A DNA stretch of 5,670 nt from contig QXWX01000192.1 of assembly GCA_009911175.1 (NCBI GenBank), positions 1-5,670 of the forward strand, in the 5' to 3' direction. Origin of the DNA: Lachnospiraceae bacterium. Lineage in GTDB: Bacteria; Bacillota_A; Clostridia; Lachnospirales; Lachnospiraceae. The position numbers were made by a program, and so were the translations under genes. Below, one piece after another: positions 44-5,670 of the stretch. Each line of letters starts with the position of its first letter. Position 1 is the stretch's first letter. The notes under the pieces were generated by a model, which did not search any database, had not been told where the DNA came from, and saw only the letters and a program-made list of their open reading frames with translations.

Positions 44-310
44 TTATGCGAGCTTATACCGCCGTGAATAATTCAGGATTAATATTGTTATATAACAATA
101 CACTATTGAAATACCATCGTCTTTAAGTTCACTTATACTCACAATAGTTATTATAACTGGAATCAAAATATATAATACAAAATACGCAGTACCATCACCT
201 TTTCTAAAGTCCTAAATATTTTCTCTCATCCAACTTTCGACTACTGAAGAAGGAAACGTATTTGGACAGGCCTCATCTTTTGTATTCAATCTATAATCCC
301 CCTCAATCAT
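44..310 (-). pseudogene. small two-helix membrane protein, interrupted by one in-frame TAG
   Basis: Reading leftward from the ATG at 310, one frame stays open to TAA at 46-44 except for a single TAG at 214-212. The first part (32 residues) is hydrophilic and ends in VESWMRENI. The part after the TAG (55 codons) starts DFRKGDGTAY, then has two hydrophobic stretches (about FVLYILIPVIITIV and ISIVYCYITILIL) separated by SELKDDG, and ends in the basic tail SRRYKLA. That layout is typical of a small integral membrane protein. The ATG has no close ribosome binding site, but a TTG at 289 has GGGG at 298-301 eight bases upstream and may be the true start. A promoter at 338-366 points into it. No usable start codon with a ribosome binding site follows the TAG, so the second half is probably not translated alone. 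I do not recognise the family. Alternatives are a genuine 25-32 residue peptide followed by chance open frame, or stop readthrough. Confidence 0.4.
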
Positions 311-337
311 CTGTTAACTATATTTGCTTACACTCCT

Positions 338-366
338 ATTATACTAAGCCCCATTTAAAAATGCAA
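338..366 (-). promoter_or_regulatory. sigma-A-type promoter for the small minus-strand gene
   Basis: On the minus strand the -35 box is TTGCAT (366-361) and the -10 box is a consensus TATAAT (343-338), with exactly 17 bp between them. Transcription should start near 331, about 20 bases before the ATG at 310. It diverges from the plus-strand promoter at 470-498. Confidence 0.65.
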
Positions 367-392
367 TTACGATTATATCTTAATCGCTAAGA

Positions 393-423
393 AAGCCTGT
401 ATTTTCAAGCACTTCGCAGGCTT
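393..423. repeat. 7+7 bp inverted repeat between two divergent promoters
   Basis: AAGCCTG (393-399) and CAGGCTT (417-423) are perfect inverted copies around a 17-base loop. The flank is T-rich on neither strand (CATGATG on plus, TCTTAGC on minus), so it is a poor intrinsic terminator. It could be a weak terminator, a protein-binding site, or a relic. The other sequence between 367 and 469 shows nothing I can support. Confidence 0.45.
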
Positions 424-469
424 CATGATGTTATTTTCCGTACAAAAATAGAATTATTGAAAAAAACTG

Positions 470-498
470 TTGACAGACCAGACGAATCACGCTATATT
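470..498 (+). promoter_or_regulatory. near-consensus sigma-A promoter for the short transcript
   Basis: A perfect -35 box TTGACA (470-475) is followed after exactly 17 bp by TATATT (493-498), one mismatch from the consensus -10. Transcription should start near 505. The TTGACA also forms an apparent TTG start codon of a 66-codon open frame, but as a promoter element it would lie upstream of the RNA, so that start cannot be used by this transcript. Confidence 0.75.
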
Positions 499-504
499 AT
501 TGGT

Positions 505-718
505 ATGGGATACATACGTGTTGCGTATTAATAGAATCCCGAATTCCAGGCTTATATATATGAATCAGGCATCACAGTTTTCTATTGTGCGCAAGCATTT
601 TGATGCGGTCAGCATTTGGAATATATGTGAAGCCTTCAAACAGATCACAACTCCAAAATTGAAAAAGTAGATAGAAAAGGTAAAAAAGAGCACTTCCAGG
701 TTTGCTCTTTTTTACTTT
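505..718 (+). ncRNA. candidate small structured RNA, about 210 nt
   Basis: This interval is bounded by a near-consensus promoter and a strong intrinsic terminator and has no convincing gene inside. It contains nested complementary segments. Near the 5' end, GGGAT (507-511) pairs with ATCCC (536-540) around ATACG (514-518) and CGTAT (524-528), which have a 5-base loop. In the middle, AGGCTT plus ATATAT (548-559) pair with ATATAT and AAGCCT (621-626, 630-635), leaving only GTG bulged. Inside that, GCATCA (569-574) pairs with TGATGC (601-606). At the 3' end is the terminator hairpin. The alternative is a small mRNA: an ATG at 560 opens 36 codons to a TAG at 668-670, with only a weak CAGG upstream and the ATG next to the central stem. 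It matches no RNA family I know. The boundaries are inferred from the promoter and terminator. Confidence 0.45.
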
Positions 719-720
719 GT
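680..720 (+). terminator. intrinsic terminator of the short plus-strand transcript
   Basis: GTAAAAAAGAGCA (680-692) and TGCTCTTTTTTAC (703-715) form a perfect 13 bp stem with a 10-base loop, followed by T-rich sequence. The stem has an A-run on one side and a T-run on the other, so it could also work on the minus strand as a backup for the large gene. Confidence 0.85.
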
Positions 721-753
721 TCTTTTTTATCACCGCTTCTCATTTAGCTGATA

Positions 754-794
754 AAAACCGCCCCGGCACTCGTTAAAGCGCAAGGGGCGGTTTT
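754..794 (-). terminator. intrinsic terminator of the surface-protein gene
   Basis: AAAACCGCCCC (754-764) and GGGGCGGTTTT (784-794) form a perfect 11 bp GC-rich stem with a 19-base loop. On the minus strand it begins 7 bases after the stop codon of the large gene and ends in TTTTT. Together with the terminator at 680-715 it separates two converging transcripts. Confidence 0.92.
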
Positions 795-801
795 CAATTA
801 C

Positions 802-3800
802 TTATTTCTTTTTCTTTGTTTTTTGAGTCGATTTCTGTGTTGTCTTCTTTGTGGTCTTGTTCGGCTTTTTCTTCTTGCCGTTTTTCTTCTTCACAATACC
901 GACAATCACTCCAATACTCACGACTGCCGCCGCAATCCACGGGATAAAGGAAATCGGGTCACCGGTCTTCGGCATGAGGTTGGAAAGAGCACTCTTGCTG
1001 TCATCCGATGCACCTTGTTCGGCTGCATTGGTGGAAGAGGTCGTTCCATTTCCGTTAGTGCCGTCCCCGTTCTGATTGCCTGTGCCGTCTCCGTTTGCAT
1101 TCGGATCCTGGTTATCCGGGTTGTTCGGGTCATCTGGATTGGTTGGATCATCCGGGTTATTCGGGTCGTCCGGATTATCCGGGTTGTTCGGGTCATCTGG
1201 ATTATCCGGGTTGTTCGGATCGTCCGGATTATTCGGGTTGTTCGGGTCATCTGGATTGGTATTCGTTGCTACCTTCCAACCAATTGCAAGTGGTGAGGTT
1301 CCATTTACTGTAAATGATAAGTGATCTCCTTCAACCTGATCAATCTTGGTAATGTTCTCCATTTCCCCAGCTTTAAACTTATCAAACTTCCCAGAGTACA
1401 TATGAACCGCAACCAAATCGTACTTTGTTTCACCATTCAGATCCGGGAATTTCGGATCTGCGGAACGAAGATTATCATATGTAAGGTCTATCTTACGCGG
1501 AAAATCATTTTCTCCCGCAGGTACACTATCTACTTGCTTACCATTCGTATCGTAGATTCTCATTTCTACTTCAAGGTCGTAATATGCCACGTTATCAAAT
1601 TCATATCCCGAATTCATGGTACGCAGATAGGCATTCATATAAGTTCTGATTGACTCTGCATTGCTGATCGGCGGGGAATCAGGATCAAGCTGTACTCCCA
1701 TTAATGTAGACGGAATTGTATTATCAGTTAAAGATTGTACTTTTCCATCTGCTACTTCTATCGCTTTCTCAGCGGTAAAGAGTTCTTCTGCCATATCACT
1801 GTCTTTCATATTACTCCTGGTAGCAATTGCCTTAACTGTTGTTGTCTTATCAATCGAAAATGGTTCTTCCCCTTTGTATAGTGTACTCTTTTTACTGTCC
1901 TTACTCGGAGTGCTACCATCTGTGGTATAGTAAATCTCCATTCCCGGCATCGCTGTAGGATAAGTAATAATTACGTTCGTCCTTCCGCCAAAAGTAGTTC
2001 CTCCGGCGCTAGTCGTAATTTCAGGCTTTTTAGCCTGCAGCATTTCCGTAGATACTGGTTCACCACATTGCGTTCCTTCCGCATTTGCCAGATAAACTTT
2101 TGTTGCAGCATACCTTATATAACCTGTATACTGTGTACCTGACAGGCAATCTGCCTTAGTTGGTGACTCCTGCCATTCGATACCATTACCGCTGTCAAAG
2201 CCATATTCAAAGGGCCCTGCATCTCCTTCTGGAGGTGTAATCGTAGCTGTATAGGTTTCACCATCTTCATTTGGATCAGGATTAATTGTCAGTACACCTG
2301 CTTCCGGTTTATCTGTTCGCTCCAGCAAATCAAATTTTCTATCTGGATCCGAATAGACTTCGCTTCCCTTCACATTGGTTGACTCTGTAGCATAGGCATA
2401 AAACGTATGTGTACTTCCCGGCTCAATGTTGTCAAAAACAGCAATCGGAGTCAAAACATCCGGGTTATTCTCGGGATCCAATGCTGTCCAGACCGCCTCT
2501 GTCTTCTGGCTATTTTCAGCGTCCTGATCTTCCGTATCCATCCATACCCACACTTTACTGCTTCCACTGCGATCAATAACATCATTTTCTGTCTTGCCGG
2601 TTACAGTTACTGTATGGATAAACTTTTCTGGATTTGAACTAACAGTATAACTACCACCAACACTAAGCGCCGGTGCATCTCGCTGTTCAATTACCACTGG
2701 CGCTGTCAATAAGTTCAAACCTGCAGCGCCAACAGTATATGTTCCATCTACAGAATAATTACTACCTTTTGTGCCTGAAAGAGTCATTCCTTCAAGCCTA
2801 ACTGTATTATATGTCCCAACATTTACACCGTCTTTACCATCTGCACCTACTATAATACCTTCCATCCCTTTTGTATCTTTTCCAATATTAGGCAAATCAT
2901 CCTTTAAAATAGATTTTGCATTATCAGGATCATCAAAATCCACATCTATACCACTTATTTTTACATTGGATTTACCGTTGTATTGTCTTCCATCGGCAGT
3001 TATACTTTTCACTTTCAATACTATTTTATTGATATTATATGTTATTGTTGCCGAATCAGTAAAATTGTTACCACTTCCTACAACTCTAACTGTAATCGTT
3101 CCTGCACTGGTAAAATCAGTCGTTATTTCGGTACCTCTTAAATATTCAACCTTATAGTCGTCCGGCGATAAAACTTTATTTCCGTCTTTCCGGTCTAACG
3201 TATCTAATGTAACTTGTTCTACAGTTGCTTGATGCGGTGTATTATTATACAGATACCCCTTTTCGTCCACACCCAACTTAATTTTTGCAGTTAAAAGAGA
3301 AGCCGGTTTTATTGTATATGGTACATCTTTACTACCTGTAAAATTACCATTACCACTTCTATAAGGCGTAATTCTTATTGTACCCGTACCTGCCTCTGTC
3401 TGATTTATAACAGCACTGTTGTCATCATTCGTTGTAGGCAAGTCAAACGTATAATCTGTGCCTTCTACCAGCTTTATCCTTCCCTCATCGCAGGATACTG
3501 CGATATCACCTACTGCAAAATCAGCGCGAGTATATGCTCTACCAATATATTGTTTTTCTTCACCAGAAACAGAAACATTACAATCTTTAAGATTTAACGG
3601 ATCGATTGTAAACTCAAATTCAAACCTCAAAGTCCCATTTCTATATTCCACGCTATAGGTTCCAGCATTTATTATAGGATCTCCTTCTTTTAAGGGCTTG
3701 CCATCAAGAGAAAAGGTAGGCTTCCACCCTGTCTCATCAACAGGGAATGTATCTTTACCAACTGTTCTCGTAGGATTAATCGTATACACCTTCTTACTTA

Positions 3801-5088
3801 AATCAGTACCTGTGTATACAACATTTGGAGTCGTTAATGTAATATCTTCTTTGCCAAGGCTTATCACTTCTTTTATGGTAGATTCTTTGCTTCCACCTAC
3901 GTCTGCCATCTTATGAGCGTTAATTATCTTACCAGCACCAGTAATTTTACCTTCGTTCTCGAGTGAAGATCCATCTATTGGAATCGTCAATGAACTCCCG
4001 GCAGGAATAAATAATTCCTGTCCCATTCCGATCTTAAAGAGGGGTGGCATTGTTGCCTGCCCCCGGACTGTACATAAATCTCCTTCAACAATAGTATCAT
4101 TCGCTCCACTTTTTGCTTCCCATATTAGTCCAGTAAAAGATCCGACTATAGCAGGGCTCACATCGTTTGCTGTAATTACTATACTCTGCGATGATGAAAG
4201 TTGATCACATGAAATACCACTTGCCCTACTATTTTCTGCGCCACTCGCATCTGTTCCACCTAGAGCTTTTACTGAGCCACCATTAATCTTTACAGTACCA
4301 ACGACTATATTGTAACTACCATTTCCAATACCTGGTGCACCTTCTGAATTATCATTTTCACCATTTCCACCAAAAGCAGTTACTTTACTGCTGCCTTCAA
4401 TTGTGATATCGCCAGCTCCTCCATTTTTATAACCGCCAATGCCGGCTCCTCCAGCGCCTCCTTTTGCCGTTATCGTACCGCCTTTAATTGTAATTTTACC
4501 CGCATGAGCGCCGTCACCGTTCGCCGAACCGCCAATACCGGCTCCTCCATATTTACTTTCAACATTCAAGCTACCCGAACCATTAATTGTAAGACTTGCA
4601 TTAGTCGGAACATAGATTCCTGCATAACCTTTTCTACTTACAAGGCTATTTGTACCTTCCAAATTCAGTTCAAGCCCTGCATTTTTTCCAACTTCTATGG
4701 CACTATCCCCTCTGACTACCGTTCCATCAGACAGAGTTTTTTCTTTAGTTGTATTAATTTTAACATTGTCTAAAGTGACTTTATGATTTCCACTTATTAC
4801 TTTAATTCCAAAACTTGATTCCGTACCATCATTAGTTATAGTATGCCCACAACAAATATCATGTCCATTTTCATCTTTGACAGTAAAACAATTTTTTACT
4901 TCCTCACCTTCAAAATGATAACCCGTACTTTCCAACAATAAATTTGATGTACTACTACTGGTAATTGGCGTACTAACCGACGCAGCCTCAATTCTCAACG
5001 GCACAAAAAACGATGCCATAACCGCCGTCATTGCCATCGCCAGAACTTTCCCCTTTATTCTCTTTTGAATCACTCTATCCTTGATCAT
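802..5088 (-). CDS. large sortase-anchored surface protein with MBG/YDG-like repeats
   Basis: This 1428-residue protein is exported and probably wall-bound. Residues 1-35 are a signal peptide (basic start, hydrophobic core, likely cleavage at IEA|AS). Residues about 100-400 are Gly-rich with GGAGIGG at 181 and 213, the style of clostridial beta-helix or carbohydrate-binding-like repeats. About 412-800 hold four beta modules of roughly 95-110 residues. Each starts with a Y-x-G-like motif (425, 514, 614, 703); the first three end in FTIDP, YTIKP or YNINK, typical of MBG/YDG domains. About 800-1020 look Ig- or fibronectin-like. About 1021-1108 (YYTTDGSTP at 1053) match the chitobiase C-terminal type. 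About 1109-1276 are unrecognised. A 1277-1330 Asn/Asp/Pro stalk follows. The end is MPKTG (1372-1376), a membrane helix (about 1380-1399) and a 29-residue lysine-rich tail. The start is set by GAGGA nine bases upstream of the ATG and by the signal peptide. No catalytic domain is visible. I infer an adhesin or glycan-binding role. Confidence 0.97.
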   Translation of the reverse strand: MIKDRVIQKRIKGKVLAMAMTAVMASFFVPLRIEAASVSTPITSSSTSNLLLESTGYHFEGEEVKNCFTVKDENGHDICCGHTITNDGTESSFGIKVISGNHKVTLDNVKINTTKEKTLSDGTVVRGDSAIEVGKNAGLELNLEGTNSLVSRKGYAGIYVPTNASLTINGSGSLNVESKYGGAGIGGSANGDGAHAGKITIKGGTITAKGGAGGAGIGGYKNGGAGDITIEGSSKVTAFGGNGENDNSEGAPGIGNGSYNIVVGTVKINGGSVKALGGTDASGAENSRASGISCDQLSSSQSIVITANDVSPAIVGSFTGLIWEAKSGANDTIVEGDLCTVRGQATMPPLFKIGMGQELFIPAGSSLTIPIDGSSLENEGKITGAGKIINAHKMADVGGSKESTIKEVISLGKEDITLTTPNVVYTGTDLSKKVYTINPTRTVGKDTFPVDETGWKPTFSLDGKPLKEGDPIINAGTYSVEYRNGTLRFEFEFTIDPLNLKDCNVSVSGEEKQYIGRAYTRADFAVGDIAVSCDEGRIKLVEGTDYTFDLPTTNDDNSAVINQTEAGTGTIRITPYRSGNGNFTGSKDVPYTIKPASLLTAKIKLGVDEKGYLYNNTPHQATVEQVTLDTLDRKDGNKVLSPDDYKVEYLRGTEITTDFTSAGTITVRVVGSGNNFTDSATITYNINKIVLKVKSITADGRQYNGKSNVKISGIDVDFDDPDNAKSILKDDLPNIGKDTKGMEGIIVGADGKDGVNVGTYNTVRLEGMTLSGTKGSNYSVDGTYTVGAAGLNLLTAPVVIEQRDAPALSVGGSYTVSSNPEKFIHTVTVTGKTENDVIDRSGSSKVWVWMDTEDQDAENSQKTEAVWTALDPENNPDVLTPIAVFDNIEPGSTHTFYAYATESTNVKGSEVYSDPDRKFDLLERTDKPEAGVLTINPDPNEDGETYTATITPPEGDAGPFEYGFDSGNGIEWQESPTKADCLSGTQYTGYIRYAATKVYLANAEGTQCGEPVSTEMLQAKKPEITTSAGGTTFGGRTNVIITYPTAMPGMEIYYTTDGSTPSKDSKKSTLYKGEEPFSIDKTTTVKAIATRSNMKDSDMAEELFTAEKAIEVADGKVQSLTDNTIPSTLMGVQLDPDSPPISNAESIRTYMNAYLRTMNSGYEFDNVAYYDLEVEMRIYDTNGKQVDSVPAGENDFPRKIDLTYDNLRSADPKFPDLNGETKYDLVAVHMYSGKFDKFKAGEMENITKIDQVEGDHLSFTVNGTSPLAIGWKVATNTNPDDPNNPNNPDDPNNPDNPDDPNNPDNPDDPNNPDDPTNPDDPNNPDNQDPNANGDGTGNQNGDGTNGNGTTSSTNAAEQGASDDSKSALSNLMPKTGDPISFIPWIAAAVVSIGVIVGIVKKKNGKKKKPNKTTKKTTQKSTQKTKKKK
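1105..1260 (-). repeat. tandem repeats encoding the Asn-Pro-Asp-Asp-Pro stalk
   Basis: This stretch encodes variations of NPDDPNNPDNPDDP, an extended proline-rich spacer of the kind that carries wall-anchored proteins through the peptidoglycan. At DNA level it is built of degenerate 9-base units. One 29-base segment occurs twice without a mismatch, at 1112-1140 and 1175-1203, exactly 63 bases (21 codons) apart. A shorter related copy lies at about 1239-1258. Gain or loss of 63-base units would keep the frame. Confidence 0.9.
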
Positions 5089-5394: not shown

Positions 5395-5424
5395 TTGTAT
5401 TCCCGTACAGCCATATGCTACAAT
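5395..5424 (+). promoter_or_regulatory. probable promoter of the leader and gene at 5622
   Basis: TTGTAT (5395-5400) and TACAAT (5419-5424) are separated by 18 bp, and TGC directly before the -10 gives an extended -10 element. The predicted start near 5431 falls a few bases before the first strand of the putative closing stem of the leader (5435-5443), which fits a leader RNA beginning there. Confidence 0.62.
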
Positions 5425-5558
5425 AGGGAAAAGCAGATTTTCTAAAGTTTCTTATATCGGAACGTCTGGTTTCGATATATCTGAGAACGTGACATTTCTA
5501 CACAAGGGCCTCTGTGTCCTGCCGTTCAGAAAATTCGTGCTTTGATCCACATGAAGCG

Positions 5559-5621
5559 GGAGGTTTTCTGATCTGGCACGGGAAAATCTCCTAACAACAA
5601 TTGAATAAGAGGAGGTTTTCT
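5559..5621 (+). repeat. 11 bp direct repeat duplicating the ribosome binding site
   Basis: GGAGGTTTTCT occurs at 5559-5569 and again at 5611-5621, 52 bases apart. The second copy is the ribosome binding site directly before the ATG. The first copy is followed by GATC and has no start codon, so it cannot serve translation. Both are complementary to the intervening segment 5582-5592. Confidence 0.85.
5610..5615 (+). promoter_or_regulatory. strong ribosome binding site of the gene at 5622
   Basis: AGGAGG lies six bases before the ATG, a full consensus Shine-Dalgarno at good spacing. It fixes the start of the downstream gene and is the part of the leader that would be masked by pairing with 5582-5592. 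Confidence 0.9.
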
Positions 5622-5670
5622 ATGAAACAAAAGAGAACGAGTAAGAAAAAAGTAAGCAGTACAAATGTGG
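5622..5670 (+). CDS. start of an unidentified gene, cut by the window end
   Basis: Only the first 16 codons are present: MKQKRTSKKKVSSTNV. The start is secure because of the consensus AGGAGG six bases upstream. The visible part is hydrophilic and strongly basic (seven Lys or Arg in the first eleven residues). That could be the n-region of a signal peptide, the start of a cytoplasmic nucleic-acid-binding protein, or a signal-anchor; nothing here decides between them. It is transcribed divergently from the large surface-protein gene and sits behind a long structured leader, so its expression is probably controlled after transcription starts. I cannot name the product. Confidence 0.85.
   Translation, partial: MKQKRTSKKKVSSTNV

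Follow-up and report, generated by a model that had tools for sequence, protein, structure and literature searches.

What does a structured leader do when it runs into the ribosome-binding site of a gene? The question is raised by the 3′ end of the window (the whole stretch of 5,670 nt of Lachnospiraceae DNA that was analysed, contig QXWX01000192.1). An earlier note, made from the sequence alone, had drawn four helices there and proposed a riboswitch-like leader, with a closing stem that doubles as an anti-Shine-Dalgarno (anti-SD) and without a match to the consensus elements of several known riboswitch classes or the T-box. The last point agrees with our search of Rfam 15 with the window leader (5430-5624) and its relatives (E limits of 10, 5 and 1), in which no class matched the leader; it is a member of a cis-regulatory RNA family that is new to Rfam 15. 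The computed stability of the window leader has a z-score of -3.5, and none of 200 shuffles was equally good. Here, we describe this family and argue, at a probability of roughly 0.7, that it works as a default-OFF switch of translation for Rpn-type toxins, in which a less stable fold (the pairings A:B and C:D, below) represents the ON state.

Relatives were first searched for with a pattern of the anti-SD and Shine-Dalgarno (SD) strands (24 fixed bases plus a gap), run on genome contigs. The resulting 13 stretches all have one protein family at the ATG that follows (the copies in L006 and L011 are cut short), and they keep the leader as far as the contigs reach; the leader alignment of these pattern relatives has 12 rows. 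A covariance model (R1) built from the leader's 3′ part matches 20 of the 397 genomes from the family of genome G001 (E up to 0.01), also before clearly different genes. A second model (R2), restricted to segments B to D, finds 77 places in 45 of the 397 Lachnospiraceae-family genomes (E up to 0.001). Class-wide, R2 matched two of 391 genomes, G001 (which includes a Schaedlerella arabinosiphila contig) and G032, both already known as carriers. The 86 leaders tabulated here derive from 38 R1-type and 49 R2 places, minus one repeat. Left out before the counts were reverse-strand R1 matches, near-identical copies from the first group (L001, L003, L007, L010, L011, L013, L044 and L064), and the R1 matches L060 and L070, which were judged by eye to be chance. 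Depending on the run, all segments are present in 79 or 77 of the 86 leaders, and those leaders were analysed further; similarity cuts for covariation reduced the 79 to 56, and the 77 to 34, 11 or 6. Among the leaders of the 12 genomes searched for the genus, L105 is closest to that of the window (83%). Another window-like leader, L194 (G002:C226:1-1400), carries about 100 extra bases between A and B that form a hairpin by eye, and the gene after it is decayed.

The 86 distinct leaders share one fixed order of parts: a promoter element, segment A, a spacer, segments B, C, D and E, and the start codon (Table 1). The segments follow the patterns AAAGCA..TTTTCT (A), AGAAAA..TGCTTT (B), AAGCAGGAG..TTTTCT (C), ..CTCCTG (D) and GGAGG (E). 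D and E were located in 80 of the 86; some of the six that lack D are decayed copies. A is 53 to 139 nt away from the TGCTT of B (a range that excludes the second L068 leader, where the scorer misplaced A).

Table 1. Features of the window, with positions counted from its first base.
Feature	Position	Strand	Sequence	Remark
Surface-type protein gene	802-5088	-		1428 aa; divergent from the leader
-35 element, weak, possible	5395-5400	+	TTGTAT	assigned by eye
Extended -10 promoter element	5414-5424	+	TATGCTACAAT	precedes segment A
Segment A	5430-5443	+	AAAGCAGATTTTCT	at the predicted transcript start
A-B spacer hairpin (helix 2 of the earlier note)	5453-5479	+		7/7 pairs; lineage-specific, spacer length variable
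Segment B	5526-5543	+	TCAGAAAATTCGTGCTTT	pairs with A or C
Segment C	5553-5571	+	GAAGCGGGAGGTTTTCTGA	pairs with B, or with D via 5558-5568/5582-5592
Segment D, anti-Shine-Dalgarno	5582-5592	+	GAAAATCTCCT	pairs with C or E, 11/11 each
Segment E, Shine-Dalgarno stretch	5610-5620	+	AGGAGGTTTTC	pairs with D
Start of the controlled gene, 16 codons	5622-5670	+	MKQKRTSKKKVSSTNV	cut by the window end; putative Rpn-type nuclease

Segment A resembles C, C resembles E, B is complementary to both A and C, and D to both C and E. These likenesses and complementarities result in four chained helices (A:B, B:C, C:D and D:E), of which neighbours are mutually exclusive. In the window, A:B is formed by 5430-5435/5538-5543 and 5438-5443/5528-5533 (6/6 pairs each), and B:C by 5526-5533/5564-5571 (8/8) and 5538-5543/5553-5558 (6/6), while C:D pairs in full (11/11). 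The likeness of C and E is literal here, as the SD stretch GGAGGTTTTCT has an exact second copy at 5559-5569, inside segment C, of which the earlier note had made no use.

Covariation was assessed from duplex energies, by comparing segments that belong to the same leader with permuted partners, a procedure in which some relatedness survives permutation. With 56 non-redundant leaders, the cognate pairings are favoured at z -3.1 for A:B (p 0.001), -12.2 for B:C, -3.4 for C:D (p 0.0004) and -8.5 for D:E. With 34 leaders and shorter, non-overlapping segments, the values are -2.7, -9.1, -2.5 and -6.8, respectively. All four helices of the chain remain at p 0.012 or below with 11 leaders, and A:B weakens to p 0.076 when only six very distinct leaders are used. 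A:B and C:D are thus backed by weaker covariation than B:C and D:E. The compensatory changes can also be seen by eye: D:E reads CCGGA/UCCGG in L049 and GAAAA/UUUUC in most leaders, and B:C is altered to CGGAAA/UUUCCG in L047. At the single pair of A position 7 and B position -1, the bases pair in 76 of 83 leaders versus 68.5 expected (p 5e-5), or in 61 of 68 versus 55.2 after deduplication (p 0.001), with G-C in L062, A-U in L085 and G-U in L050 and L054; the window itself has a G-G mismatch. A fixed-register pair count on alignment A8 gave no excess over shuffles, and the register of the stem shifts by one base between groups. The non-chain pairing B:D reached z -2.6 (p 0.008) at 56 leaders, with overlapping segments, and dropped to z -0.5 at 34 leaders with non-overlapping ones.

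The same comparison of homologous leaders, which the earlier note had called for, separates what it had drawn correctly from what it had not. Its anti-SD pairing (5582-5592/5610-5620, 11/11 with one G-U) is kept and covaries in relatives, and the anti-SD strand is, as proposed, common to two mutually exclusive helices, namely C:D and D:E. The other helix of this strand is not the closing stem, however, since its conserved alternative partner is C (5558-5568); likewise, the 5′ element has its conserved pairing with B (5526-5543) rather than with D. The closing stem itself (helix 1, 5435-5442/5582-5589, which is A:D) can be drawn with 8/8 pairs in the window, but it has no cognate preference in the sets of 56, 34 and 11 leaders (z 0.0, p 0.51; z -0.1, p 0.46; and p 0.16); with only six leaders it reaches p 0.025, contrary to the larger sets. 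Similarly, helix 4 (5536-5540/5576-5580) has 5/5 pairs in the window but is exact in only three of 80 leaders, window included. Since relatives conserve neither A:D nor helix 4, the architecture drawn originally is wrong. Of the remaining two, helix 2 (5453-5459/5473-5479) can be drawn in full in the window but lies in the variable-length spacer and is missing in L002 and L012, and helix 3 (5481-5489/5523-5529) is only partly drawable (5/7 pairs in both registers), with arms of unequal length.

The chain can be resolved into two competing folds, whose energies were compared with the core pairs forced. The fold B:C+D:E, in which the SD is hidden, beats A:B+C:D, in which it is free, in 75 of 77 leaders by a median of 6.4 kcal/mol (-57.9 versus -46.7 in the window), and the mean unpaired probability of the SD core is 0.02 across the 77. 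Stepwise folding, computed as the equilibrium at each RNA length and not as kinetics, predicts which helices prevail at each stage. Once B is out, A:B exceeds a probability of 0.5 in 76 of the 77 leaders. With C out, this holds for B:C in 53 and for A:B in 23; with D out, for A:B in 47, C:D in 48 and B:C in 27; and with E out, for B:C in 76, D:E in 67 and A:B in none. In the window, A:B (0.99) is followed by B:C at 0.99 already when D is out, which makes its ON intermediate weaker than in relatives such as L008, and not predicted to be populated. Taken together, the leader has conserved, mutually exclusive helices, one of which hides the SD, as is characteristic of a cis-acting translational RNA switch.

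In translational riboswitches and erm-type attenuators, one strand is common to an upstream helix and to the helix that hides the SD. The anti-SD strand of the present leader is likewise shared between two helices, but the leader consists of five serial segments instead of one shared strand and, unlike erm-type attenuators, contains no leader peptide by eye. Its likeness to an expression platform, together with an AUCC-like loop and segments B and C that are strictly conserved by eye, would fit a metabolite riboswitch, in which a ligand bound to the B-C hairpin sets the SD helix. We consider this unlikely: strict conservation of B and C can be explained by their having two pairing partners each, the genes downstream are nuclease- or toxin-like rather than metabolic, and the Rfam classes do not match. 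What stands of the riboswitch-like description is a new structured leader with likely translational control; nothing suggests a metabolite, and the switch, on which a ligand may act, would not require one.

The leader precedes mostly genes for putative Rpn-type PD-(D/E)XK nucleases, as judged from library matches to Rpn or PD-(D/E)XK families, profile relations and fold matches of the downstream proteins. At E up to 0.001, TIGR01784 is matched by 12, PF12784 by seven and PF04754 by three of 56 downstream proteins. Five groups take in 71 of 76 downstream ORFs and leave five outside, a count that is not independent of the sorting, as the groups were built from the same ORFs. The window gene is tentatively assigned to the Rpn-type nucleases because its closest leader, L105, precedes a protein (beginning MKQKRAARKRARCTEV) whose group shows a relation to PDDEXK_2; L105, which stands in for the window gene, itself has no match to TIGR01784, PF12784 or PF04754 at E up to 0.001, and PF04754 occurs in three of 120 L105 homologues among the matches listed. 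The leader is not carried by all Rpn-type genes: for the type of the largest group, with 30 loci in 12 carrier genomes, R2 finds it at 13 (E up to 0.001), and four more were recognized by eye (L151, L155, L161 and L170). Some leaders are followed by remnants or other genes. In L127, what is left of a leader directly precedes the glycerol kinase gene glpK, the Rpn-type gene apparently having been lost. The genes behind the leaders in L058 (1024-1503) and L059 (1608-2339) belong to none of the five groups; judged by eye, one has a JAB/MPN-like H-x-H..S..D motif and the other is Nudix-like, and the switch may carry them as further cargo.

Rpn proteins have been described as toxins that act in phage defence and whose antitoxin is translated from a start within the same gene, in a paper that calls their differential expression unexplained (PMC10327210). 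Candidate signals for such an internal start are present here too. The SD signal before a conserved Met or Val codon scores 6.2 versus 3.9 by synonymous resampling in 13 ORFs, and 6.6 versus 4.4 in 17 ORFs of the other motif class (one of them without signal); this scoring covers the 30 of 59 long ORFs that have a motif-marked site and reads the sequence signal only. L105 has a similar internal SD-start site at codon 250.

A structured, SD-hiding leader on toxin-like genes, in multi-copy loci whose segments could cross-pair, also recalls type I toxin-antitoxin systems, where an antisense or trans-acting RNA would control the leader. This seems quite improbable, as the ORFs after intact leaders are nuclease-like and mostly about 250-370 aa long (proteins of around 300 aa) rather than small hydrophobic peptides; a simple scan of 5430-5670, weak evidence in itself, listed no promoter-like site on the reverse strand.

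Elsewhere in the window, the surface-type protein has NPDDPNNPDN repeats, matches to Fn3_assoc and CHB_HEX_C_1, and an MPKTG-like sorting signal by eye. The left part of the window matches an uncultured Lachnospiraceae MAG (L005, contig CATLCV010000105.1), with 94% identity over window positions 78-1308, which takes in only the 3′ part of this gene, and 98% over 460-720; the window thus comes from a close relative within the Schaedlerella group. About 1.2 kb beyond the matching stretch, L005 contains a further leader copy with its gene (5441-5672), so the surface-protein gene may lie between two leader-bearing genes. At 470-498 there is a strong promoter-like site (TTGACA-17-TATATT, 11/12), and some 200 nt without a clear ORF follow (505-712), with a hairpin and T run near 686-712 by eye; the hairpin was not listed by a terminator scan of the window. 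This stretch, possibly a small RNA, is 98% conserved in G002 and partly conserved in G001 (two of the 12 genus genomes).

Returning to the leader, the earlier note's promoter just before the first helix is well placed. Its extended -10 recurs: 78 of 85 leaders have TGNTANNNT within the 25 nt that precede A, versus 13 of 499 control stretches further upstream; the window site was missed by a consensus promoter scan because its -35 is poor. Segment A, which is included in neither R1 nor R2, begins with exactly AAAGCA in 81 of 86 leaders and scores at least 11 of 12 in 69 of 85, versus 1.9% of dinucleotide shuffles. This recurring promoter element suggests that transcription starts at A. Such a position invites another explanation, in which a single DNA operator (AAAGCA-spacer-TTTTCT), bound by a regulator, is present in three copies close to the promoter, namely A, C and the reverse of B. 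We regard this as very unlikely, given that the spacers differ (usually 2 nt in A, and 4 nt in B and C), that D:E covaries though D and E are not copies of this site, and that G-U and U-G pairs are seen at A7/B-1. Hairpins that guard against read-through translation are known for some transposase mRNAs, and the leader might merely be such an end structure of a mobile unit. This would fit in that genomes carry many copies, some copies are decayed, and those at different sites are homologous over a stretch that begins close to the promoter and ends close to the stop codon. That reading is the least credible, in view of the own promoter element just before A and of the published argument that Rpn genes are not transposases (PMC10327210).

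We return to the default-OFF switch, which would operate as follows. Once transcription has begun at segment A, A:B would form and leave C free to capture the anti-SD D, so that E would be open to ribosomes; this A:B+C:D fold is the presumed ON state. In the stable fold, for which stability is computed and both helices covary, B:C and D:E would hide the SD of the Rpn-type PD-(D/E)XK nuclease gene, and the nuclease is probably kept off until the fold changes, a switching predicted to occur inside the cell. Since A:B can form first and the OFF fold is complete only with E, the ON fold is probably metastable or stabilised by a factor, which would allow brief or conditional synthesis. The gene probably has an internal start in its last third, as the known RpnS antitoxins do, and this start would lie outside the lock, so the antitoxin could be made while the full-length toxin is off. 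If that start is used, the leader would lock the full-length toxin alone.

The closest described mechanism is that of the Helicobacter pylori type I toxin mRNA aapA3, where successive, metastable and mutually exclusive helices hide the SD during transcription and the mRNA ends in an inert, stable fold, with covariation reported (PMC6733600). The present leader shares the toxin mRNA, the exclusive SD-hiding helices and the covariation, with folds that are computed only. It differs in that everything takes place in the 5′ leader, whereas the final lock of aapA3 is a long-distance 5′-3′ pairing that is opened by 3′ trimming. Furthermore, aapA3 has an antisense RNA (IsoA3), no antisense RNA is known for the present leader, and its gene encodes a putative nuclease of about 300 aa. 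With the E. coli rpn genes, the present ones share predicted PD-(D/E)XK nucleases, mobility, multiple copies and, as signals, internal SD-start sites; they carry a leader, and the words leader and untranslated are absent from the main text of the E. coli paper (PMC10327210). Mobile or repeat candidate motifs are also multi-copy, structured and linked to nuclease or transposase genes (PMC11109978), but the present motif is fixed in position and orientation and overlaps the SD of its gene.

More tentatively, the leader could be an RNA timer for phage-defence toxins, with each new mRNA briefly ON (A:B+C:D) and then lastingly OFF, while the antitoxin start stays open throughout. If this is true, toxin output would report the transcription rate or the speed of RNA polymerase, without ligand or antisense RNA, and a phage that disturbs transcription would be an example of a trigger. 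For the widespread Rpn proteins, reported as toxins and with a differential expression described as unexplained (PMC10327210), the conserved leader offers a concrete, testable switch. Within a major family of gut bacteria, it also provides a clean natural case of serial RNA strand exchange.
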